A stretch of 64,000 nucleotides of DNA from Microvirga alba (GTDB taxonomy: Bacteria; Pseudomonadota; Alphaproteobacteria; Rhizobiales; Beijerinckiaceae). Numbering within the stretch: position 1 is the first letter of the stretch; every line of letters begins with the position of its first letter. Position numbers and translations under genes: made by a program. The stretch lies in assembly GCF_015694465.1 (NCBI RefSeq), contig NZ_JADQDO010000004.1:124001-188000 (forward strand). Direction: 5' to 3'. Below are positions 33,174 to 46,925 of the stretch, one piece after another. The notes below the pieces were generated by a model. It had not been told where the DNA came from, did not search any database, and saw only the letters and a program-made list of their open reading frames with translations.

Positions 33174-33263
33174 GGAGGGGTGGCCGAGTGGTTGAAGGCG
33201 CACGCCTGGAAAGTGTGTATACGGGAAACCGTATCGAGGGTTCGAATCCCTCTCCCTCCGCCA
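33174..33263 (+). tRNA. tRNA-Ser (anticodon GGA)
   Basis: The 90-nt gene folds as a class II tRNA. The acceptor GGAGGGG (33174-33180) pairs with 33253-33259 with one G-T wobble, discriminator G, and encoded CCA at 33261-33263. The anticodon stem CACGC/GTGTG encloses loop CTGGAAA with anticodon GGA at 33208-33210, and a long variable arm and TTCGAAT loop follow. It reads UCC/UCU Ser codons. It is the apparent boundary between core-like genes and the accessory region, and tRNA-Ser genes are frequent integration sites. Confidence 0.97.
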
Positions 33264-34679: not shown

Positions 34680-35762
34680 TCAGACGAGAGCCTGGGCGTT
34701 GATGGATGCCGGCGAATGATCTGCTGGCGCCTTGTCCCAGGCTTCAGCAAATACACGCGCTGCATTCTCTCCCATGATCCTGCGGATATCGGCGTCCGTG
34801 TAGCCGCGACGCGCAAGAAGGTCCGGCAGCGTCTCGAACTTCTGCTGACTATCGAACCCCTCCGAATAGACCGTCTCCCACACATAGGGGCCGACCATTT
34901 CCGGATAGTTTCGCTTCGTCCCATTCTCCCACTTCACCTTTGTATGCGGAAAAAGGTCTGTGCCGATTCCCACATGGTCGATGCCGACGAGTTGCACCAT
35001 GTAGTCAATGTGGTTGGCAAAATCCTCAACCGTCGGACGTGCCGATTTCGGCGAATGACAGAAGGGTGAATAGGGTGAGACGCCGACCATGCCACCGGTT
35101 GCGGCGGCTGCGCGAATCTGATCGTCCTTGATGTTCCGGGGATTCGGAGTCAACGCATAAGCGTTCGAATGAGTGAAGATAGCCGGTCCGTCATAGAGTT
35201 CCATCGCATCCATGGAGGTGCGATAGCCCACATGGGTCAGATCGAGCGCGATGCCGTTGTGCCGCAGCTCACGCACCGCCCGCTTGCCGATCAGGGTCAG
35301 ACCGTGGTCGGTCGGTTCCAGGCAGCCGGAGCCGAGAGCATTGGCTTCGTTGTAGGTGAGCGCCGCGCAACGGAGCCCGAGGCGGGCGAGGCACATGATG
35401 AGCCGCGTTTCGCGCCCAATGTAGTCGAGGCCCTGCGATCCCAGGATCACCCCGACGCGGCCACTCTGCCGCGCAGTCTCGATGTCGGCCCCCGAGCGTA
35501 CGTGAAGCGCACGATGGCTCATCTGATCGAACAGGCAAAGGCAATCGTAGAGTTCGACAAGCACCGGTTCGATATTCTCGACATGCGTGCCGATGCTGAT
35601 GTGCAGCACATCGATCCCCGCGCGAAGCGGCCCGTCGGCATAATCTGCGGGGCGCCCGGCCGGTGCCCCAAGCGTTCCGAGCGACCCTCCAAGCATGTCG
35701 AAGACCAGAAAGTCCTTCAGGGTGCTCTTGGCCGCTTCGCGTCGTACTGCAGTCTTGGACAT
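34680..35762 (-). CDS. Peptidase M19 (membrane dipeptidase) family protein, atypical metal site
   Basis: The 360-residue TIM-barrel protein belongs to the renal-dipeptidase family. Family landmarks seen are ALDLTHVG and AIFTHSNAYALTPNPRN (two zinc His) and HVGIGTDLF (catalytic Asp). The N-terminal HxD pair is absent (FDMLGGSLG) and the bridging Glu is Gln in VGVILGSQGLDYIG. One metal site should therefore be lost. Family members cut dipeptides with D- or unusual C-terminal residues and some beta-lactams. ATG 35762 is preferred over TTG 35777. It is divergent from the MocR gene; a second such protein lies at 43251. Confidence 0.85.
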   Translation of the reverse strand: MSKTAVRREAAKSTLKDFLVFDMLGGSLGTLGAPAGRPADYADGPLRAGIDVLHISIGTHVENIEPVLVELYDCLCLFDQMSHRALHVRSGADIETARQSGRVGVILGSQGLDYIGRETRLIMCLARLGLRCAALTYNEANALGSGCLEPTDHGLTLIGKRAVRELRHNGIALDLTHVGYRTSMDAMELYDGPAIFTHSNAYALTPNPRNIKDDQIRAAAATGGMVGVSPYSPFCHSPKSARPTVEDFANHIDYMVQLVGIDHVGIGTDLFPHTKVKWENGTKRNYPEMVGPYVWETVYSEGFDSQQKFETLPDLLARRGYTDADIRRIMGENAARVFAEAWDKAPADHSPASINAQALV

Positions 35763-36192
35763 CAAATCTAGCTCCAATGAGTGGTGTTCTCACGCACGAT
35801 AGGCGGAGAGGAAGGGATCGGTGTCACGGTTTTCCGGCGACGAGACCATGGGGCCGGCCCAACACTGAATCCGTCGGTTCTTAGTCGGATCGTTGATCGT
35901 CGAAGGTGGTTTCGAGTTTGCGGGGAAGAGTTGCGGCGATGGTCGATTCACCGCTCATCGTAGGCATGGCTACTGCTCCGCGGTGCCGCGCACTAGAACC
36001 ACCCACGTTGCGAACGGTGTGACGAAGCCGCAACGACGAAGATGCATCTGAACGCCTTTCACAGTGTGAATATGAGTGCAACGCTCGATCGGCCGCTCGC
36101 GGTTTCGAGCCATCGTCGATGTCGAAGTTGAGGCTAGACCTCGGCGCAAAGTTCAGTCAATGATGAATGTTCATAAACAAAAGGAGCCTCGC
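35763..36192. other. Intergenic region between M19 and MocR genes
   Basis: The 430 bases hold divergent promoters for the M19 gene and the MocR gene. TGTTCATAA at 36168-36176 recurs at 37735-37743 before the permease operon. Nothing else is recognised; short frames here, such as one at 35881-36081, look spurious. Confidence 0.4.
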
Positions 36193-37536
36193 GTGGAGGG
36201 CAAGCAAAATGTCCTCGCATTACTCGTCCGCAACGTTCCATTGCGTACAGCGCGCTCTTTGAGCCGCACGATCATGGACCTCGTAGCCGATGGCAAACTT
36301 GTGGCCGGGACGCGGATGCCTACGGTTCGCGACGTTGCCAATGCCATGGCGATGAGTGCGACGAGCGTGGCCATGGCCTGGCGCGAATTGGTGGACTGGC
36401 GCGTGCTCGAGACAAAGCGTCGGGGCGGCACGATTGTACTGGGGCCACCGCGCGCGCCACGAGCGGCGCGCTTCGATGCACTGACTTCGAAGGCCGCAAC
36501 CGTACCACTCAATCTCGGCTATACACTCAGCGACCCCAAACTGATCCCGCCGCTCGGCCCGGCACTCGCCGCAGCAGCGGCCGATCCAGGAATCAACGAC
36601 TACACGCCGGTGCCGATCAGTCCCGCACTGCGCGCGGTCGCGACTGACATGTGGCCGTTTCCACCCAAATTCCTGCTGGCGACGCATGGAGGCGTGTGCG
36701 CCATCGAGATGGCATTGAGAACAACCGTGCGCCCCGGCGACCGTGTGCTCGTCGAAGTGCCGTCGCTGCCGCGTGTGTTCGACATCCTGGAAGCAATCGG
36801 TGCGACGATCGTACCTTTGCCCAGAGTGAATGGCGGACCCGACCTCAACGTCCTTGCGCAGTCACTGCGCAGCCGTCCCGTCGCACTGGTTTACCAACCC
36901 TTCGGCCACAATCCGACCGGACTTTCGGTGACGGCCGACTGGGTCCATCAGGCCGCCTCCCTGCTGCGTGACGAGCATGTGGCAGTGTTCGAACTGGTTC
37001 TGTCGCCGCTGCTGCGTCGCAATCAAAGCCGAATTCGTTCAATCGGCCAACATCTTCCGCACTCGGTCGTCCACATCCAATCGTTCAACTTCTTCTTCGG
37101 TCACAATGTCCGGGTCGCTGTCGCCGGCGGCAGCGACTATTATATCGATCGTATGTGGCAGAGTTTCACCTTCTCCTCGCGATGGGTGAGTCGGGTTCTC
37201 CAGGATGCGGTAGCGTTTCAACTCACGGACCCAAGTGCAGGCGCGCATCTTCGACGCTTCATTGATACATGCTACTCTCGTCACGCCCTCTTCAGCGAGG
37301 CGCTCCGGGCAGTTGGATTCGAACTGCAGGAAACCGAGGGACCGATGATCTGGCTCCCCGTTCCGGACGAGAAACACGTTGCGGACGCCCTGCTCAAGGA
37401 TGGCATCATGACCTACGGTGGAAGCAACTTCTCACCAGTGCTGCTCGCCCAGGACTTTCTGTCTTTGAACGGCACGCTCCTGGCGGAGGGACACGCGCGC
37501 ATCGCCGACCTTCTTGCTCGCGCATGTGGCCGGTGA
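36193..37536 (+). CDS. MocR/GntR-type regulator with degenerate aminotransferase domain
   Basis: GTG 36193 is chosen because AAGGAG lies six bases upstream; ATG 36160 is the alternative. The 447-residue protein has an N-terminal GntR winged helix (MPTVRDVANAMAMSATSVAM, then AWRELVDW) and a fold-type I aminotransferase domain (YQPFGHNPTGLS). In MocR proteins PLP binds Lys in SFSK-type motifs; here the site reads SFNFFFGHNVRV, with Phe at 300. The DDY pair that holds PLP is ELV. PLP binding is therefore unlikely. It likely regulates the ABC operon that starts 285 bases downstream. Confidence 0.82.
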   Translation: MEGKQNVLALLVRNVPLRTARSLSRTIMDLVADGKLVAGTRMPTVRDVANAMAMSATSVAMAWRELVDWRVLETKRRGGTIVLGPPRAPRAARFDALTSKAATVPLNLGYTLSDPKLIPPLGPALAAAAADPGINDYTPVPISPALRAVATDMWPFPPKFLLATHGGVCAIEMALRTTVRPGDRVLVEVPSLPRVFDILEAIGATIVPLPRVNGGPDLNVLAQSLRSRPVALVYQPFGHNPTGLSVTADWVHQAASLLRDEHVAVFELVLSPLLRRNQSRIRSIGQHLPHSVVHIQSFNFFFGHNVRVAVAGGSDYYIDRMWQSFTFSSRWVSRVLQDAVAFQLTDPSAGAHLRRFIDTCYSRHALFSEALRAVGFELQETEGPMIWLPVPDEKHVADALLKDGIMTYGGSNFSPVLLAQDFLSLNGTLLAEGHARIADLLARACGR

Positions 37537-37820
37537 GCAAAGACAATTTCTGCCCAATGCTTCTATGATCGGATCGGTCGTGTCGATCGGAGGCCGCCGT
37601 GACGCGGCTGGGACGGGAGCGACGAACAACGCAATCGAATTCGAGAGTTCTCCAGCAGCGCATTCTCTTTGGCCGACGAACTGCGGTCAGGGAATTCAGA
37701 TCATCGTATCACAATTGATTTCGCGGCTCGTTTTTGTTCATAATCATATTCTATTGACCGTTTTCGACGATCGCTCTTACGGTTTGAACGGCGGAGTTCT
37801 GTCCGCTAGAAAACAACGCC

Positions 37821-38777
37821 ATGCTGAGATACCTCGCACGCCGCATCCTGCAGATTTTCCCCGTAGTTCTACTTGCGGTGATGATGAACTTTCTGCTCAT
37901 CAATTTGGCACCCGGCGATCCGGCTGTCGTGATGGCCGGCGAACACGCACCAGTCGAATACATCGCAGAACTTCGTAAATCGTATGGTCTCGATGCACCG
38001 GTGCTCGAGAGGCTCGGCACATATCTCGTCAAACTTATGCACGGCGACCTCGGTTATTCGTTCGCGTATCGACGCCCTGTGCTTGAACTGCTGCTGGAGC
38101 GAGCGCAGGCGACGATGCTGCTCGTGCTCATCAGTCAGTTCTTCTCCATCCTGCTCGGCACGTGGCTCGGCGCGTACGCGGCCCGGCACCACAACCGGAT
38201 TGCCGACAAACTCATCAGCTACGGCACAATCCTTCTCTACTGCATGCCTATTTTTTGGATCGGCATGATGCTGATCATGATCTTTGCGGTCAAGTTACAA
38301 TGGCTTCCGAGTTCGGGGATGACCAGCTTCATGTCCTTTGGCCGTCCACGTTGGATCGACATCGCCATCCACATGATCCTACCGGCGACGTGCCTCTTCC
38401 TGCACACACTCCCGATCTACGCCAAATTGGCGCGCGCCAGCGTGCTCGAAGTCGCTCGGGAAGATTTCATCACCACAGCGCGTGCGATCGGATTCTCCGA
38501 ACGGGTTGTCTATATGCGTCACGCCCTCCGCAACGCATTGTTGCCGACCGTAACCGTGGCCGGTCTCTCGTTGAGCGCCTTGCTGACCGGCGCATTGCTC
38601 GTGGAAACGGTGTTCGCTTGGCCGGGATTGGGGCGACTGATGTTCGAAGCGGTAAGCGCCCGCGACTATCCCGTTCTGATGGGCGGCTTTCTCTTCGCTA
38701 CACTCCTCGTCATCATCGGCAACTTCATCGTTGACGTGATCTACACTTATCTCGATCCTCGGGTGATCTACTCATGA
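37821..38777 (+). CDS. Dipeptide/oligopeptide ABC transporter permease (DppB-like)
   Basis: The 318-residue inner-membrane protein has about six membrane helices and the DppB/OppB opening MLRYLARRILQIFPVVLL, the extracytoplasmic APGDP motif and the coupling motif EDFITTARAIGFSERVV. It forms the membrane channel with the next gene. The stop overlaps the next start by four bases. It is the first gene of a five-gene operon downstream of the MocR gene. Confidence 0.93.
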   Translation: MLRYLARRILQIFPVVLLAVMMNFLLINLAPGDPAVVMAGEHAPVEYIAELRKSYGLDAPVLERLGTYLVKLMHGDLGYSFAYRRPVLELLLERAQATMLLVLISQFFSILLGTWLGAYAARHHNRIADKLISYGTILLYCMPIFWIGMMLIMIFAVKLQWLPSSGMTSFMSFGRPRWIDIAIHMILPATCLFLHTLPIYAKLARASVLEVAREDFITTARAIGFSERVVYMRHALRNALLPTVTVAGLSLSALLTGALLVETVFAWPGLGRLMFEAVSARDYPVLMGGFLFATLLVIIGNFIVDVIYTYLDPRVIYS

Positions 38778-39595
38778 GATCATTGGCGCGTGAGACACCG
38801 CTGATCCTTGGCCTTGCACTTCTGGCATTCATGGTGGCAGTCGCGCTCCTGGCGCCGGCACTCTATCCGAGCAACCCGCTGTTTTCCAACGCGCCGCCCA
38901 TGCAGCCGCCGGACTGGGCCTATCCGTTAGGCACCGACCATACCGGGCGCGATGTTGCCGCGATGCTTGCTTGGGGCACCCGAGTATCGCTGCTCTTTGC
39001 TTTCGGGGCCGCGGGCATCTCTCTTGTCTGCGGCACGGTGCTTGGCGCGATTTCCGGCTACTTCGGCGGCCTTGTTGACGACGTTCTATCTCGTCTGTTC
39101 GAGATGTTTAACATCGTGCCGCGCCTGTTCCTGATCATCCTCGTCGTCGCTGTCTTCGGATCCTATCTGTGGCTCACCGTGGCGATCGTCGGACTCACCA
39201 TGTGGCCGTCCAACGCACGCATCATGCGTGCGCAAGTGCTCACCTTGAAGTCACGTGGTTACGCCCAGGCCGCCATCGTGTCCGGTGCAGGTCCCTTCAC
39301 CGTGCTGTTTTCGCATGTCGTGCCCAACGGCATCGGACCGGTCATGGCGAACTCGATGCTTCAGATGGCTTATGCGGTGCTGACGGAGGCTGGTCTCGCG
39401 TTCCTGGGACTCAGCGACCCCAATATCGCGTCATGGGGACAAGTGCTCTATTGGGGCCAAGGCTTCATCGCCTCGGCGCCATGGATGATCATTTTCCCAG
39501 GCCTGGCCATCGCCATGTTGCTGATGTCGTTTCACCTCATCGGCGGGACGTTGCAGGAGCGGTTGGATCCGCGGCAGCAGGGAGCGATGGCCTGA
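38774..39595 (+). CDS. Dipeptide/oligopeptide ABC transporter permease (DppC-like)
   Basis: This 273-residue partner permease has about six membrane helices and the DppC landmarks YPLGTDHTGRDVAAML and YAQAAIVSGAGPFTVLFSHV (EAA-type loop). It is coupled to the upstream permease by ATGA overlap and stops one base before the ATPase start. Together with the DppB-like protein it forms the transmembrane pore. Confidence 0.93.
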   Translation: MRSLARETPLILGLALLAFMVAVALLAPALYPSNPLFSNAPPMQPPDWAYPLGTDHTGRDVAAMLAWGTRVSLLFAFGAAGISLVCGTVLGAISGYFGGLVDDVLSRLFEMFNIVPRLFLIILVVAVFGSYLWLTVAIVGLTMWPSNARIMRAQVLTLKSRGYAQAAIVSGAGPFTVLFSHVVPNGIGPVMANSMLQMAYAVLTEAGLAFLGLSDPNIASWGQVLYWGQGFIASAPWMIIFPGLAIAMLLMSFHLIGGTLQERLDPRQQGAMA

Positions 39596-39596
39596 C

Positions 39597-40601
39597 ATGT
39601 CACACCTCTTGGAAGTCGCAGGCCTCAGGATTGACTTTACAACCCGACGTGGATCGCTCGGCGCGGTCAACGACATATCGTTCACGCTCCGTGCTGGCGA
39701 GAGCCTCGGCCTCGTTGGAGAGTCGGGCTGCGGCAAGAGCACGACCGCTTATGCCCTGATGCGCCTGTTGCCCGGCAATGGTCGGATCACGGCCGGAAAG
39801 GTGCTGATAGACGGCAAGGATATCGTCGCCGCGAGTGAGGACGAGGTGCGCCGCATCCGCTGGCAGGACATCGCCATCGTGTTTCAGAACGCCATGACGG
39901 CGCTCAATCCGGTCCGACGCATCGGTGACCAGATGGTCGCCGCGCTCACGGAGCACCAACCCGTCAGCCGGGCCGAGGCGCTCGACCGGGCGCGAGCCAT
40001 CTTTGAAAAGGTGGGCCTCTCTCCTTCACGGCTCATGAATTATCCGCACGAGTTCTCCGGCGGCATGAAGCAGCGCGCGGTCATCGCGCTGGCCCTCATG
40101 TGCCAGCCGCGGATCCTTCTGGCGGATGAGCCAACGACCGCCCTCGACGTCGTCGCGCAACGCCAGGTGCTTGAGCTCCTTGCCGGCCTCAAAGCAGAGT
40201 TCGGGTTGAGCCTGATCCTGATCTCGCACGACATATCGGCGGTGGCCGAGCTCTGCGACCGGGTCGCCGTCATGTATGCCGGGCAGATCGCTGAGGAAGG
40301 TCCGACGCGCGAGACCCTTCTCAACCCACGCCATCCCTATACGCGCGGGCTCGTCGCCTCCATCCCATCGATCTATGACGAGATCACCACGCTCAGTTCC
40401 ATCGAAGGGGTGCCGCCCGACCTCGTGAACCCGCCATTGGCGTGCCGCTTCGCCCCACGCTGCCCTCACGCCCAGCCCATCTGCGCGCAGGTGCCGCCAC
40501 CGATGGTCGAGGTTGCGCCGGGCCGCCGGTCGCGTTGCCACTTCGCTACACAATTCGACGTGTTGATTGCCGGGAAGGAGATCGCCAATGTCCCGACTTG
40601 A
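39597..40601 (+). CDS. Peptide ABC transporter ATP-binding protein (DppD-like)
   Basis: This 334-residue nucleotide-binding subunit has Walker A GESGCGKST, the signature FSGGMKQR and Walker B LLADEPTTALD, followed by the oligopeptide-specific C-terminal extension with CRFAPRCPHAQPICAQVPP, a Cys-rich motif that binds an Fe-S cluster in Dpp/Opp ATPases. It pairs with the DppF-like ATPase encoded next. The gene overlaps its neighbour by 14 bases. Confidence 0.94.
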   Translation: MSHLLEVAGLRIDFTTRRGSLGAVNDISFTLRAGESLGLVGESGCGKSTTAYALMRLLPGNGRITAGKVLIDGKDIVAASEDEVRRIRWQDIAIVFQNAMTALNPVRRIGDQMVAALTEHQPVSRAEALDRARAIFEKVGLSPSRLMNYPHEFSGGMKQRAVIALALMCQPRILLADEPTTALDVVAQRQVLELLAGLKAEFGLSLILISHDISAVAELCDRVAVMYAGQIAEEGPTRETLLNPRHPYTRGLVASIPSIYDEITTLSSIEGVPPDLVNPPLACRFAPRCPHAQPICAQVPPPMVEVAPGRRSRCHFATQFDVLIAGKEIANVPT

Positions 40602-41568
40602 GGTGACACGGCTCGTCAAGACCTATCCGGTCAAGGTCGGCCTCTGGCGTCAAATCCGCAGCCGTCAGCCCAGCGTCCAGGCCGTCAGCAATGTCAATCT
40701 GACGATCGAACCGGGAGAGGTCGTAGGACTGGTGGGCGAGTCCGGATGTGGCAAGACCACTACCGGCAAGATGCTCGTGCGCCTGGAAAAGCCGACCGCC
40801 GGTTCTGTGCGCTTAGACGGCACCGACATCTTTCAACTCAAAGGCCGTGAGCTGCGTTCGTTTCGTCGCCGCATGCAAATGGTTTTTCAGGATCCCTACG
40901 ACACTCTTAACCCTCGTCGGTCGATCCTGGAGACCTTGATGCAGCCACTGCGCTATCTTGGCCTCGAAGCGTCGGCGGCCGCGCAGCGCGAGCGAGCTCT
41001 CGAGGCGCTCGACCACGTAGAGCTCGGCGCACTCGGCGATTTCAGCAATCGATATCCGCATCAATTGTCCGGCGGGCAGCGCCAGCGCGTTGCCATCGGC
41101 CGCGCGCTTGTAGTCGAGCCTGACATCATTGTCGCGGACGAACCGGTCTCGATGCTCGATGTGTCGGTCCGCGCCAGTGTTCTAAAACTCCTGCAACGCC
41201 TCAACCGCGAACGTGGAATCGGCATCCTTCTGATCACGCACGACCTGGCAACCGCCAAGTTTCTATGCGACCGGGTCATCGTCATGTATCTCGGCAAGGT
41301 CGTTGAAGAGATGCCGTCCTCCGCGATGCCACGCGCGGTCCGACACCCCTATTCGAAGCTTCTGCTGGCCTCCGTGCCCGATCTCCGGTCAGAGCCGTCC
41401 GGCCCACGCGAGCATTTGGACGGGGCAGCACCAAGCGCCATCGACCCGCCGTCCGGCTGCCGCTTTCACCCACGCTGTCCGTTGGCCGTACCCCGATGCT
41501 CTACCGAGGAACCATCGCTTCGTCCGATGGGCGAGGGCTCTCACATGGCCGCATGCCATGTCCTGTAA
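40588..41568 (+). CDS. Peptide ABC transporter ATP-binding protein (DppF-like)
   Basis: The start ATG 40588 has AAGGAG seven bases upstream; an earlier in-frame ATG at 40567 is less likely. The 326-residue protein has Walker A GESGCGKTT, QLSGGQRQR and VADEPVSMLD (a Ser in place of the usual Thr/Ala), and a Cys-containing C-terminal CRFHPRCPLAVPRC. It is the second ATPase of the importer and shares the oligopeptide-family tail. Confidence 0.93.
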   Translation: MSRLEVTRLVKTYPVKVGLWRQIRSRQPSVQAVSNVNLTIEPGEVVGLVGESGCGKTTTGKMLVRLEKPTAGSVRLDGTDIFQLKGRELRSFRRRMQMVFQDPYDTLNPRRSILETLMQPLRYLGLEASAAAQRERALEALDHVELGALGDFSNRYPHQLSGGQRQRVAIGRALVVEPDIIVADEPVSMLDVSVRASVLKLLQRLNRERGIGILLITHDLATAKFLCDRVIVMYLGKVVEEMPSSAMPRAVRHPYSKLLLASVPDLRSEPSGPREHLDGAAPSAIDPPSGCRFHPRCPLAVPRCSTEEPSLRPMGEGSHMAACHVL

Positions 41569-41586: not shown

Positions 41587-43173
41587 ATGCAGATGAAAAG
41601 AAGGACTTTTCTCTCCGGGATGGCGCTGCTGCCCGGCACTCTGATGTCGGCCCCTGTCCCGGCTTGGGCGCAATCAGGCAAAAAGACGTTCAAGGGAACT
41701 CTCGTCGTCGCGGCCTCACTCGATCCGAAGAACTTCAACACCAACTACGACACCTTCGGCGGCGCCAATTACATCAACTTCAACATTATGTCGAAGCTGG
41801 TGAAATATGACCACGTGAAGAATGAGATTTTCCCGGACCTGGCCACATCCTGGGAGATCGCCCCGGATCTGAAGACATATACCTTCAAGCTTCGGCCCGG
41901 TGTGAAGTGGCATGACGGCAAGCCGTTCACCTCCGCCGACGTGAAATGGACCATCGAGGATATCGTCCGAGAGGGCGACAGGGCGGCGACCTACAAGTTC
42001 GTCTCCGATATCGAGAGGGTGGAGACGCCCGACGATCTCACTGCCGTTCTTCGCCTAGCCCGCCCGAACGGGATCATCATACAGAATTTCGCAAGCTATA
42101 ACGGCTTCAATATTCTGCCGAAGCATCTCTACGAAGGATCGAGCGTCCGAGACAATCCGGCCAATCTGAAACCGGTCGGCACGGGACCGTTCAGGTTCGT
42201 CGAATATGTGGTGGGTAGCCACGTGCTGCTGGAACCCAACCCCAACTATTACGGCGAAGGCCCCTATCTGGAGCGCCTCGCTTTCCAGATCCTGCCAAAT
42301 CTCTCGACCGCGCTTATGGCATTGGAGGCCGGCCAGGTCGGCTACGTCACCGCGTCACCTCCGTTCGCTGATGCCGCACGGCTGAAATCCGTGAAAGGGA
42401 TCGCCATCGACTCGACCCCATCCACGATCGTGATGTGGTTCGGGTTCAATTTCGACAAGCCGATGTGGCGGGACATCAGATTGCGTCGAGCCGTCTCGAT
42501 GGCCATCAATCGTGACGAGCTCGTCGGAAAACTTTATCTGAACCTCGTGAAGCCAGCCTGGGGTCATTTCACCTCCGCCGTGCCATGGGCCAACGATGCC
42601 ACCGCACGCCAGCCGGAGTTCAATCTGGCGGAAGCCGAGAGACTGCTGGACGAGGCCGGTTACAAGAAGGGTGCCGACGGCATTCGCATGACCGTGCAAA
42701 TGATCGTCTTCCCCACCAATATTTGGGGCAGCGTCGAGCAGGCGCAGATGGTCAAGCAGCAATTGAGCGCTGTCGGCATTCGCGTCGACGTGAAGGTGGT
42801 CGAGTTCGCTCTGCGTGTTGAGGAGATCAACAAACGCGGATTCGATTTCGTGCATGGCGGCGGCACGCGCGGACCGGACCCCTCGGAGATGATCGACTAC
42901 TATGAGTCGAAGAGTTCACGGAACAACATGAAATACAGCAACCCCAAGGTTGATGAGTTGTTCATCGCCGGGCGAGCCAGCGTCGATCAAGGTGAACGCA
43001 CGAAGATTTACTCCGAGATCCAAAAGATCCTTGCAGCCGATCAGCCGATGGTCCCGATGGTGGAATACAGCTATCTGCGGCCCTATCGGCAGGAATATCG
43101 CGGCTTCTCGTGGCATCCCGAAGCTGCGGGAAAAGCCAGTGAGCACATGTACAACCTCGTGCGCCTGGCCTGA
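41587..43173 (+). CDS. Peptide ABC transporter substrate-binding protein (DppA/OppA-like)
   Basis: The 528-residue periplasmic protein has a twin-arginine-like leader (MKRRTFLSGMALL, from ATG 41587 or 41593) and the class 5 binding-protein fold with PDLATSWEIAPDLKTYTFKLR, VKWHDGKPFTSADV and RRAVSMAINRDELV. It delivers the substrate to the permeases encoded upstream. Its position between the ATPase and the second M19 gene links transport to hydrolysis. Related binders take dipeptides, nickel or N-acyl/opine-like compounds, so the ligand is open. Confidence 0.92.
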   Translation: MQMKRRTFLSGMALLPGTLMSAPVPAWAQSGKKTFKGTLVVAASLDPKNFNTNYDTFGGANYINFNIMSKLVKYDHVKNEIFPDLATSWEIAPDLKTYTFKLRPGVKWHDGKPFTSADVKWTIEDIVREGDRAATYKFVSDIERVETPDDLTAVLRLARPNGIIIQNFASYNGFNILPKHLYEGSSVRDNPANLKPVGTGPFRFVEYVVGSHVLLEPNPNYYGEGPYLERLAFQILPNLSTALMALEAGQVGYVTASPPFADAARLKSVKGIAIDSTPSTIVMWFGFNFDKPMWRDIRLRRAVSMAINRDELVGKLYLNLVKPAWGHFTSAVPWANDATARQPEFNLAEAERLLDEAGYKKGADGIRMTVQMIVFPTNIWGSVEQAQMVKQQLSAVGIRVDVKVVEFALRVEEINKRGFDFVHGGGTRGPDPSEMIDYYESKSSRNNMKYSNPKVDELFIAGRASVDQGERTKIYSEIQKILAADQPMVPMVEYSYLRPYRQEYRGFSWHPEAAGKASEHMYNLVRLA

Positions 43174-43250: not shown

Positions 43251-44279
43251 GTGTCCGATCTTCACCTGACTCCTGCCGAGGCCGAACGCGCCGAGGAACT
43301 GCACGCCTCATCCTTCATTCTCGACGGTCTCGGCGGTGCGCTCGTCAATCCCGAGCCGCCCACCGACGGTGGCCGCTCCTATATGGAGCGGATCCGCGAG
43401 TCCAACATTCGCATCACCCACGTGACCCTTGTGGCGCATGCGAAGGAATTCGAAGATGCCCTCGAGCAGATGTTCCACTACTTCAACCTGTTTCAGGTCT
43501 TGCCTGATCAGGTGCTGCACGTGAAAAGCGTCGGCGACATCGAGCGGGCGATCGCCCAGAAGAAACTTGGAGTCATCTTCGGCTTTCAGACGCCGACGCC
43601 GATCGACAAGCATTTCTGGCGCTGGACCATCCTGCACCAGCTCGGCCTTCGTGTCTGCCAGCTCGCCTATATGGAACCGAACCTGATGGCCGACGGCTGT
43701 CTGGAACCCGCCAATCGCGGCCTGAGCTATTACGGCATCCAGGCGGTCAATGAGATGAACCGGCTAGGCATCGTCATCGACCTCTCTCATGTGGGAGAGC
43801 GCTCCTCGCTGGAGGCGATCGAGAAAAGCCGCAAGCCTTGCATCTTCAGCCACTCCAACGCAAAGGCCGTCACGCCTTCTGCACGCAACATCACTGACGA
43901 GATGATCAAGTCAGTGGCGGCCAAGGGCGGCGTCGTAGGGTTGAGCCCGCACGGGTTCATGTCCCACAAGACTGTCGGCGTCCAGCCAACGATCTCAGAT
44001 TATCTCGATCATTTCGAGCATATCGCCAAGCTCGTTGGCACCGACCATATCGGCCTCGGGTCAGACGTGTTCGAGAAACCCAAGCTATCCTGGGAGACGA
44101 CGACGAAGCTGTTCTACAACAGCCCGTGGGTACGCGAGACGGTGCTCAACCGCGACTACGCCAAGGTGCAGCATGTGCGGAATCTGACGCGCGGGCTGGT
44201 CAAACGCGGGTTCTCAGACAGCGACATCAAGAAGATCCTCGGCCAGAACTTCTTGCGCGTCTTCCAAGCTGTCTGGTGA
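43251..44279 (+). CDS. Peptidase M19 family protein, atypical metal site (second copy)
   Basis: The 342-residue protein starts at GTG 43251 with AGGA upstream. It keeps VIDLSHVG and IFSHSNAKAVTPSARN (both zinc His) and HIGLGSDVFE, but lacks the N-terminal HxD (reads ILDGLGGALVNPE) and has Gln for the bridging Glu (GVIFGFQTPTPI). The same changes occur in the M19 protein at 34680. It follows the binding-protein gene and precedes the C45 gene in one operon. It likely acts on the imported compound in the cytosol; the reaction is unknown. Confidence 0.85.
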   Translation: MSDLHLTPAEAERAEELHASSFILDGLGGALVNPEPPTDGGRSYMERIRESNIRITHVTLVAHAKEFEDALEQMFHYFNLFQVLPDQVLHVKSVGDIERAIAQKKLGVIFGFQTPTPIDKHFWRWTILHQLGLRVCQLAYMEPNLMADGCLEPANRGLSYYGIQAVNEMNRLGIVIDLSHVGERSSLEAIEKSRKPCIFSHSNAKAVTPSARNITDEMIKSVAAKGGVVGLSPHGFMSHKTVGVQPTISDYLDHFEHIAKLVGTDHIGLGSDVFEKPKLSWETTTKLFYNSPWVRETVLNRDYAKVQHVRNLTRGLVKRGFSDSDIKKILGQNFLRVFQAVW

Positions 44280-44305
44280 GTTTCGAGATACTCGGAGGAA
44301 TAAGA

Positions 44306-45406
44306 ATGTCTACCTTCAATGTCGTCCTGTTCGATAGCGCTCAGGCGAAAGGTCAAAGAATCCTCAGGCTGGAAGGCGACAGCTTTGAGCAGGGCCGCCA
44401 ACATGGTCGCGCGGTGCCTCATCTCTTCGCCAAAAATCTCGAATCGGTGCGCCGGGAGCTCGCCGGTCGAAAGGGGCAGGATATCGAACGCCTGTACCGT
44501 GAGGCAGCCGGGTTCGTTCGCGACCACCAGCCCGACACATGGCGGGAATACCAGGGCATGGCGGAGGGCAGCGGCCTGCCTTTCGAGGACATTCTCACGC
44601 TTAACATCAAGCTTGCACTGGTGCTCGGATTTCTGGATGTCGAATGCAGCCAATATGCGCGCGTGGTGACGCGAAAGGACGGCTCAAAGCGGACCCTGAT
44701 CGCCAAGACACGGGATCTGAAGGGTGGCGCAACGGAGCATGTGGTTCTGCTCAGGCACTATCCGGACGGCTACGAGGCTCTTGAGATTCACAAGGCCGGC
44801 ATGATCGGATATCCCGGCTCCATCATGACCAATCGCGGTTTTGCCCTCGGCACGAGCGGTATCTGGTCGAAGCGCACACCATTCGACGTCAACCGCCTCG
44901 GTGTCGCGGATACCGGAACAAACGGCCATTTTCTCTCGCGCGCAGTCCATACGCTCGATGACGTTGTCGAAGCGGCCCGCGCATATCCCCGCCTCACCGG
45001 CATCAACAATGTTGTTGCTACCTCAGGCGAGGTCGGCGCACTCGAGATTACAGCAAAGGACGCCAACCTGCTCGACCGCAACGACAGCATGGTGATCCGG
45101 ACCAACCATTACTTCACGCCGGCTTTCAAGGATTTGTCGCCAACGCCCACTGAAAATACCTCCACCTATCACCGCCATCATCGCATTTCGGAATTGCTTC
45201 CAATGGCGGAAACGGCGGAGGATTTTTGGCGTATCGCCCAGGATCACGTCGGTTTTCCGCAAGACAGTGTCTGCCGGCACAATGATGGCGACCATAAGGG
45301 ATCGTTCACGTCCTACGCCTCTGTTTTCGTACTGGAGGAGCGCAAGGCATATGTCGGATTCGGGCATCCCTGCGAAATAGCTTTCGCAGAAGCAGCTGAC
45401 ACTTGA
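44306..45406 (+). CDS. C45-family N-terminal nucleophile hydrolase (acyl-CoA:6-APA acyltransferase-like)
   Basis: ATG 44306 has GGAGG seven bases upstream. The 366-residue protein belongs to the C45 (isopenicillin-N acyltransferase) family, which self-cleaves before Cys; the expected nucleophile is Cys 114 in FLDVECSQYARVV. Further on are KTRDLKGG, GSIMTNRGFALGTSG, and SYASVFVLEERKAYV near the end. Enzymes of this family hydrolyse or transfer acyl-amide bonds. It is the last gene of the operon, which points to removal of an acyl group from an imported amide or peptide. Confidence 0.82.
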   Translation: MSTFNVVLFDSAQAKGQRILRLEGDSFEQGRQHGRAVPHLFAKNLESVRRELAGRKGQDIERLYREAAGFVRDHQPDTWREYQGMAEGSGLPFEDILTLNIKLALVLGFLDVECSQYARVVTRKDGSKRTLIAKTRDLKGGATEHVVLLRHYPDGYEALEIHKAGMIGYPGSIMTNRGFALGTSGIWSKRTPFDVNRLGVADTGTNGHFLSRAVHTLDDVVEAARAYPRLTGINNVVATSGEVGALEITAKDANLLDRNDSMVIRTNHYFTPAFKDLSPTPTENTSTYHRHHRISELLPMAETAEDFWRIAQDHVGFPQDSVCRHNDGDHKGSFTSYASVFVLEERKAYVGFGHPCEIAFAEAADT

Positions 45407-45836: not shown

Positions 45837-46925
45837 TCACAGATTGGCTGCAACGTGTTCAGCGATCGAGAGCGATGCGGTCAGCCCGGGGCTCTCAATC
45901 CCGAAAAGATGAACGAGACCAGTCAGACCATGGTTGCTCGGACCATCGATCTGAAAATCGGCCACGGGTTCGCCAGGTCCCGTAAGTTTCGGGCGTATCC
46001 CCGCGTAATCAGGGATGAGCGCTTCGTCAGGCAGATCTGGCCAGTAGCGGCGAATGGAGACTTCGAAACTCTCGGCCCGCTTCGGATCGACGACATAATC
46101 CTCCTCATCGATCCACTCAACATCTGGTCCGAAACGCATGCGCCCGGCAAGATCAAGAGTCACGTGCGTCCCAAGTCCACCATCGACTGGGGCTGGATAG
46201 ATCAAATGGGAAAAGGCTGGCTTATGTAAGCATCCGAAGTAGTTGCCCTTGACGAGAAATAGATTGGGAATCCGCTCCAAGGGATATCCCTCAGTTGCAC
46301 GAGCAAGGGCGTTCGCACCCAAGCCCGCTGCGTTGACGACGGCATCAAACGGCAAGGTTGTTGGATCAGTGCCGCCAATAGTTACCTGCCACCCTGTACC
46401 GTCCGGTGCGATCCGCTCGACCGGCGCATAGAAGGCCACGACGCCCCCCTCCGCCTCCAGCTTGCCCTGCAGGGCAAGCATGAAAGCGTGGGAATCGATG
46501 ATTCCGGTTTCCTCGGAGAGGATTGCTCCGGAGCACGCAAGGGCGGGTTCGAGCGCCTTCGCCTCCGGCGCGTCTAGAATGGACAGGCCTTCGACGTCGT
46601 TCGCCAAGCCCTGCTTATAGATGTTCTCGATCTTGCTCAGCTCAATATCATTCGTCGCAACGATCAGCTTTCCGCATTTGGCATACGGCACACCGTAGGC
46701 CTCGCAGAAAGCGTAAAGCATCCGCCGCCCGGCGGTGCAATGGATCGCGCGCAGCGATCCCGAGGGATAGTACATTCCGCCGTGAATCACCTCGCTATTG
46801 CGAGAGGAGATACCATTGCCGATACTACCTGTTGCTTCCGCCACGAAAACGGAGTGACCCCGCTGTGTCAGCGCCTGCGCGATAGCAAGGCCGACGACGC
46901 CGGCACCCACGACGAGCACATCCAT
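45837..46925 (-). CDS. FAD-dependent oxidoreductase (LhgO / DAO family)
   Basis: The 362-residue protein has the N-terminal FAD dinucleotide motif VVGAGVVGLAIAQALTQRGH (residues 5-24) and the family stretch GNGISSRNSEVIHGGMYYP, close to L-2-hydroxyglutarate oxidase (LhgO) and glycerol-3-phosphate-dehydrogenase-like proteins. It probably oxidises a 2-hydroxy acid or amine on the cytosolic membrane face. It is transcribed on the same strand as the MBL and amidohydrolase genes but with a 180-base gap. Confidence 0.87.
   Translation of the reverse strand: MDVLVVGAGVVGLAIAQALTQRGHSVFVAEATGSIGNGISSRNSEVIHGGMYYPSGSLRAIHCTAGRRMLYAFCEAYGVPYAKCGKLIVATNDIELSKIENIYKQGLANDVEGLSILDAPEAKALEPALACSGAILSEETGIIDSHAFMLALQGKLEAEGGVVAFYAPVERIAPDGTGWQVTIGGTDPTTLPFDAVVNAAGLGANALARATEGYPLERIPNLFLVKGNYFGCLHKPAFSHLIYPAPVDGGLGTHVTLDLAGRMRFGPDVEWIDEEDYVVDPKRAESFEVSIRRYWPDLPDEALIPDYAGIRPKLTGPGEPVADFQIDGPSNHGLTGLVHLFGIESPGLTASLSIAEHVAANL

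Follow-up and report, generated by a model that had tools for sequence, protein, structure and literature searches.

What does a MocR-type regulator sense when the lysine that should hold its PLP is missing? The question is raised by a gene in the stretch of Microvirga alba DNA analysed here (64,000 nucleotides; hereafter the window), for which a first-pass annotation had proposed that the Schiff-base lysine is replaced by Phe300. The gene occupies positions 36193-37536 of the forward strand, begins with a GTG codon preceded by the sequence AAAGGAG, and encodes 447 amino acids without an internal stop. Pfam places a GntR domain (PF00392) at residues 25-82 (2.3e-9; score 37.2 bits, cut-off 27) and an Aminotran_1_2 domain (PF00155) at residues 125-412 (6.4e-12). 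Judged from these matches and from the alignment described below, the predicted product is a full-length MocR-type protein, with the GntR winged helix-turn-helix at its N-terminus and a fold-type-I aminotransferase-like domain, recognised by sequence alone, at its C-terminus. An AlphaFold2 model based on a five-member alignment (A1) was poor (mean pLDDT 50.1, pTM 0.30).

Residues at the PLP site

We aligned 26 sequences picked by similarity, comprising seven members of a Lys-less clade that includes the regulator and 19 relatives that contain the lysine. Six other places in the same genome match the regulator; three of these (L002, L003 and L004) are among the aligned sequences, and the weaker, partial matches (L005-L007) were omitted. 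In the MAFFT alignment the column of the Schiff-base lysine holds Phe300 in the regulator versus Lys in all 19 Lys-containing relatives, and the Asp-Asp column reads Leu268-Val269 versus D-D in the same 19 sequences. A third column, which we take to be that of the arginine binding the substrate carboxylate in aminotransferases, holds Ser424 versus Arg in 19/19. Each of the Lys-containing relatives retains Lys, Asp and Arg together. The replacements extend to the entire clade: Phe stands for the lysine, and Leu for the aspartate that contacts the pyridine nitrogen, in 7/7 distinct members, N299 and V269 are likewise common to all seven, and position 424 is Ser or Leu, with Arg in none.

The assignment of Phe300 is confirmed both by this alignment and by a phmmer comparison with the solved aminotransferase 2egy, in which the block around Phe300 pairs SFSKVLSPGLRV (regulator) with SFNFFFGHNVRV (2egy). 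The annotation had also read the DDY segment as ELV, which is correct and holds for the six other members as well; it had named a lysine emerging at the aligned position in a corrected alignment as one result that would count against its claim, and that column contains F in every one of the seven. Neither replacement looks like a slip, since three base changes would be needed to return the Phe300 codon (TTC, 37090-37092, forward strand) to a Lys codon, and likewise three to return the Leu268 codon (CTG, 36994-36996, forward strand) to Asp. We also considered and rejected a move of the lysine to another part of the protein. The window regulator has eight lysines in total, and no column of the alignment holds a lysine common to all seven clade members; a lysine private to one member is possible.

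Because Lys, Asp and Arg are absent from all seven members, the alignment strongly supports the conclusion that a PLP internal aldimine is impossible at the usual site in this clade. To that extent the annotation's suggestion that the regulator probably does not bind PLP is supported. Its two further options, sensing of another ligand or a purely dimerising fold, are taken up below.

The Lys-less clade and its distribution

A scan of genome contigs gave four orthologues with 53-57% identity to the regulator, from a Devosia ginsengisoli MAG, Devosia sp. Root685, Devosia soli and Martelella sp. HB161492. Two more distinct members (L035 and L036, 51% identical) come from the family of genome G590, which is the Devosia family, since the proteins of G590, G694 and G716 are identical to L024, L021 and L022; these three were not counted again. 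Overall, the six other distinct members, from Devosia and relatives and from Martelella, are 51-57% identical to the regulator. In a tree with the 19 Lys-containing sequences the seven Lys-less members form one group with a support of 100/100, and the branch leading to them is long (6.55 changes per column); L003 and L004 also sit on long branches. For the 21 pairs within the clade dN/dS ranges from 0.046 to 0.292, values that are rough because synonymous differences are high (pS 0.50-0.72) yet lie far below 1, and they show the mark expected of purifying selection. We therefore regard the regulator as a conserved offshoot of the MocR family and not as a one-off.

Among 136 genomes of the Devosia family, five gave an orthologue-level match (1e-90); among 397 sampled from the order, two did, with the regulator's own genome counted (1e-100), and among 385 sampled from the class its own genome gave the sole such match (1e-80). 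At 1e-30, 14 of 298 genomes sampled from its own family matched, namely its own and 13 with homologues of 31-33% identity, all 13 of which contain the lysine. At 1e-45 there was one further match among 241 genomes of the class and two among 249 of the phylum (L043-L045), all Lys-containing. A scan of viral contigs detected no homologue of the regulator. A plasmid search with the regulator returned 25 records, each below 36% identity, and the solute-binding proteins of the window and of the Devosia type had no plasmid match at 1e-100. One of the Lys-containing relatives lies inside an 816-codon open frame (L012:337-2784), so that its N-terminus may be much extended or it may belong to a fusion. 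Within the open-licence portion of PMC, no title found names a Lys-less MocR, and no paper pairs "MocR" with any of five expressions denoting an absent lysine or one that binds PLP.

The surroundings of the gene suggest that the regulator and its neighbouring operon arrived within a genomic island, of which a tRNA-Ser(GGA) gene (33174-33263) is the likely edge. The locus begins about 1.4 kb beyond this tRNA gene, counted to the divergent M19 gene described below. In four of five stretches of about 19 kb from the same genus, similarity to the window crosses the flanking gene and stops within 10 bases of tRNA-Ser(GGA). L059 has two short matches to the window beyond the tRNA gene; the fifth stretch (L060) lacks both the similarity and the tRNA gene and is not informative on this point. 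The second ground for suggesting an island is the family-5 binding protein of the window, for which its own genome gives the sole match among 150 relatives (1e-150). Elsewhere in the window, a gene for a FAD-dependent (DAO-type) oxidoreductase (45837-46925, reverse strand) has a second copy in the genome, 75% identical, at G000:C18:689304-690383.

Peptide-import genes and operator-like elements

Downstream of the regulator, and on the same strand, lie genes whose products match profiles for a DppB/OppB-type permease (dppB, 37821-38777), a DppC/OppC-type permease (38774-39595), an OppD-type ATPase (39597-40601) and a DppF/OppF-type ATPase (40567-41568, with a true start perhaps slightly downstream). 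They are followed by genes for a family 5 solute-binding protein (SBP_bac_5; 41587-43173; Pfam and profile match), an M19 membrane dipeptidase-family protein (43251-44279; Pfam) and a C45-family autoproteolytic acyltransferase/hydrolase (44126-45406), whose listed start overlaps the M19 gene and whose true start is probably downstream. A second M19 dipeptidase-family gene (34680-35777, reverse strand; Pfam) is divergent from the regulator. Two M19 genes thus bracket the regulator and importer, and the C45 gene comes after the second in this arrangement, which may be a hint to the ligand.

In all six other members a conserved cassette with a family-5 (peptide-type) ABC importer is transcribed divergently from the regulator gene. 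This cassette was scanned directly in L022, where it encodes a pair of family-5 solute-binding proteins together with a permease and a protein of about 880 residues that joins an OppC-type permease to two ATPase domains; the other five were recognised through their similarity to L022. The fusion (L022:1005-3656, reverse strand), which lies near the two adjacent binding-protein genes, has homologues in L021, L023, L024, L035 and L036. The family-5 binding protein of the window is 30-32% identical to the nearer cassette one in L021-L024, and the closest copy of the cassette binding protein in the window's own genome is just 32-33% identical. By these comparisons the partner operons of the window and of the other members differ, yet they are of the same kind, each with a family-5 importer.

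Alignment of the upstream regions of the six orthologues reveals a block, GGTCAAT-N6-ATGTTCATAAACATAA, immediately before the regulator. In the window, alignment and a weight matrix place the corresponding operator-like element, AGTCAAT-N5-ATGTTCATAAACAAAA, at 36155-36182 of the forward strand, where it adjoins the likely ribosome-binding site and contains the near-palindrome TGTTCATAAACA (36168-36179, forward strand). A second operator-like element, GGTCAAT-N5-ATGATTATGAACAAAA, was located by pattern and matrix before dppB in inverted orientation (37732-37759, reverse strand); its core at 37735-37746 reads TGTTCATAATCA on the forward strand. The matrix was trained on the six other loci alone, with a spacer of 5 or 6 permitted after the window had been seen, and is the only test independent of the dppB site. 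Its top two sites in the 64 kb window are those at 36155 (32.7 bits) and 37732 (23.4 bits), with the next distinct site at 9.5 bits. When the 284 bp that separate the regulator from dppB were shuffled 2000 times by dinucleotides, no shuffle reached 23.4 bits (best 16.7). When the matrix was trained on the other six regulator-upstream sites in a leave-one-out procedure, the best site fell just upstream of the regulator at 6/6 loci.

Other counts bear on the same two sites. A pattern composed after viewing both of them matches exactly nowhere else in the genome (4.42 Mb); three further sites match it with 3 mismatches, and the reversed control has no match. The 12-bp core by itself, which matches exactly at the regulator's own gene and with a single mismatch at dppB, is weaker evidence and is not unique in the window: allowing up to two mismatches it has 9 matches versus 2.25 expected, seven of these at two mismatches. 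The dppB site is a single copy and departs at three positions from the core usual in the orthologues. The annotation had noted that the regulator sits upstream of a peptide operon, and indeed it precedes dppBCDF; an operator-like motif ahead of both the regulator and dppB now lends support to a regulatory link that had previously been positional only.

Related palindromes, for example TGTTCAGTAACA, can be seen by eye in the best hit at 14 of 17 Lys-containing loci scanned, a set that leaves out L003 and L004 of the 19. The carriers are L002, L008-L017, L019, L020 and L043, and this type of palindrome is possibly a family operator; the loci without it in the best hit are L018, L044 and L045. 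Since the related palindrome is also present at loci of Lys-containing relatives, the motif apparently goes with the regulator family; DNA recognition would be old and the pocket the part that has changed.

The promoter assignment for dppB is ambiguous, and both signs of control are compatible with it. A consensus scan before dppB gives 2 promoter-like sites versus a mean of 0.5 in shuffles. If the -35 element is TTGACC at 37754-37759, the operator core would lie upstream, as expected of an activator. If the promoter is instead TTGATT-18-CATAAT at 37715-37744, the core would lie over the -10 element, as expected of a repressor. At the regulator's own gene the core is beside the ribosome-binding site, a position that fits autorepression. 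A possible divergent promoter of consensus level, TTGACT-N17-CTAGCC (36132-36160, reverse strand), would read towards the divergent M19 gene, and the six orthologues have TTGACC-N17-CTAGCC (CTAGCT in L035) upstream of the gene on the opposite strand. The divergent promoter form has one match in the window; 11 of 100 window shuffles also give one.

The former cofactor pocket and known MocR systems

Taken together, we consider it probable that a MocR regulator that has abandoned the PLP aldimine controls its own gene and peptide uptake, presumably by way of a ligand held directly and non-covalently. The ancestor would have been a PLP-binding MocR regulator, and its descendant would have given up the aldimine while keeping the GntR winged helix and the aminotransferase fold, the latter as a dimer former, as in MocR proteins such as EnuR. 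We infer that the protein binds the predicted operator, with its near-palindromic core TGTTYATRAACA, before its own gene and before the dppBCDF-SBP-M19-C45 genes, and that binding would place both under its control. The old pocket, in which Lys, Asp and Arg have become Phe, Leu and Ser or Leu, would most likely hold a small ligand. Given the neighbouring genes, an imported peptide or acylated amino acid is plausible, as is a breakdown product, and the retained Arg307 would contact an acidic group of this ligand. That the pocket of the clade now serves as a direct, cofactor-free receptor for a substrate of peptide import is a proposition to which we give an even chance.

A new direct ligand is favoured because the loop that once carried the lysine is invariant in seven diverged members (N299, F300, F301, G303 and R307 in 7/7), and for the same reason the loop looks re-specified and not decayed. 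These residues also bear on the possibility that the aminotransferase domain senses nothing and only dimerises, so that the regulator would repress or activate the peptide operon in a fixed manner, with control through its own level or another factor. This explanation is unlikely: if dimerisation were the domain's sole task, more drift might be expected at N299, F300 and R307, and regulators encoded beside importers are often responsive to what is imported. It does, however, draw on the loss of several ligand-pocket residues and on the EnuR Lys302His variant, which is reported to bind no PLP and to act as a constitutive repressor (PMC8739950); by that precedent, a Lys-less MocR protein either senses anew or does not sense at all, and may be unresponsive.

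It is also conceivable, but rather improbable, that the pocket still binds, without a covalent bond, PLP, PMP or an adduct of PLP with an amino acid, and reports on that. Mutants of fold-type-I enzymes that lack the lysine are able to retain PLP adducts, and parts of the site persist here, namely the T-x-G-G (164-167) and T-G (242-243) segments and Arg307 (7/7 members), presumably the phosphate-binding arginine of the SFSK...LR motif. Against this, the aspartate facing N1 is Leu and the carboxylate arginine is lost throughout the clade, the Ser three residues before the lysine position has become Ala in 5/7 members, and EnuR Lys302His lost its bound PLP (PMC8739950). With Asp and Arg gone, sensing of a PLP-amino acid as in GabR and EnuR is unlikely. 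That the gene is decaying, or that its lysine is missing through an error of sequencing or alignment, has nothing but the unusual residues themselves in its favour and is scarcely credible, since decay is rejected by the dN/dS values and the stop-free frame, and sequencing error by the same residues in six further distinct homologues and the three changes needed per codon.

If direct sensing by the old pocket is correct, this would be a transcription factor built from a vitamin-B6 enzyme in which vitamin B6 is no longer used. The clade, Lys-less by nature, shaped by purifying selection and equipped with a predicted operator and a predicted target operon, would offer a system in which to ask what this fold is able to sense when its cofactor is gone. 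It also calls for caution, because annotating every MocR protein as PLP-dependent is unsafe.

How far the regulator departs from known systems is evident from its NCBIfam matches, all of which fall below the curated cut-offs (PtsJ, 126.4 against 573 bits; YczR, 110.9 against 487.4; EhuR, 78.4 against 480; PdxR, 72.8 against 320). The best of these, to the B6-salvage MocR-like regulator PtsJ of Salmonella (NF012025), spans residues 18-414 and reflects a common two-domain layout, but the score is far under the family cut-off, and the Lys and Asp of the PtsJ cluster are Phe and Leu in the regulator. The three MocR clusters, that of PtsJ included, are all reported to conserve the PLP lysine and aspartate (PMC6677901). 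The second-best match, to YczR-type MocR proteins (NF052290), is to a family described as linked to membrane-protein genes, which, unlike the regulator, retains Asp215 and Lys293 (PMC4944035). EnuR/EhuR, the ectoine regulators, resemble our case in MocR architecture, in the control of an importer and catabolic cluster and in an inverted-repeat operator, whereas EnuR holds PLP covalently at Lys302 and its Lys302His variant is uninducible (PMC8739950). GabR and TauR/TauR2 are MocR regulators predicted to control peptide-type ABC transporters, their regulons including dppABCD or oppABCDF, but they are described as PLP-dependent (PMC5320631), and the clade lacks the lysine. Within the same genome, the 33%-identical paralogue L002 (G000:C11:190921-192120) has the same architecture and a related palindrome in its best motif hit, but it retains Lys, Asp and Arg. 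Compared with all of these, the regulator appears to be a MocR protein by architecture that fails the residue features behind the "PLP-dependent" label.
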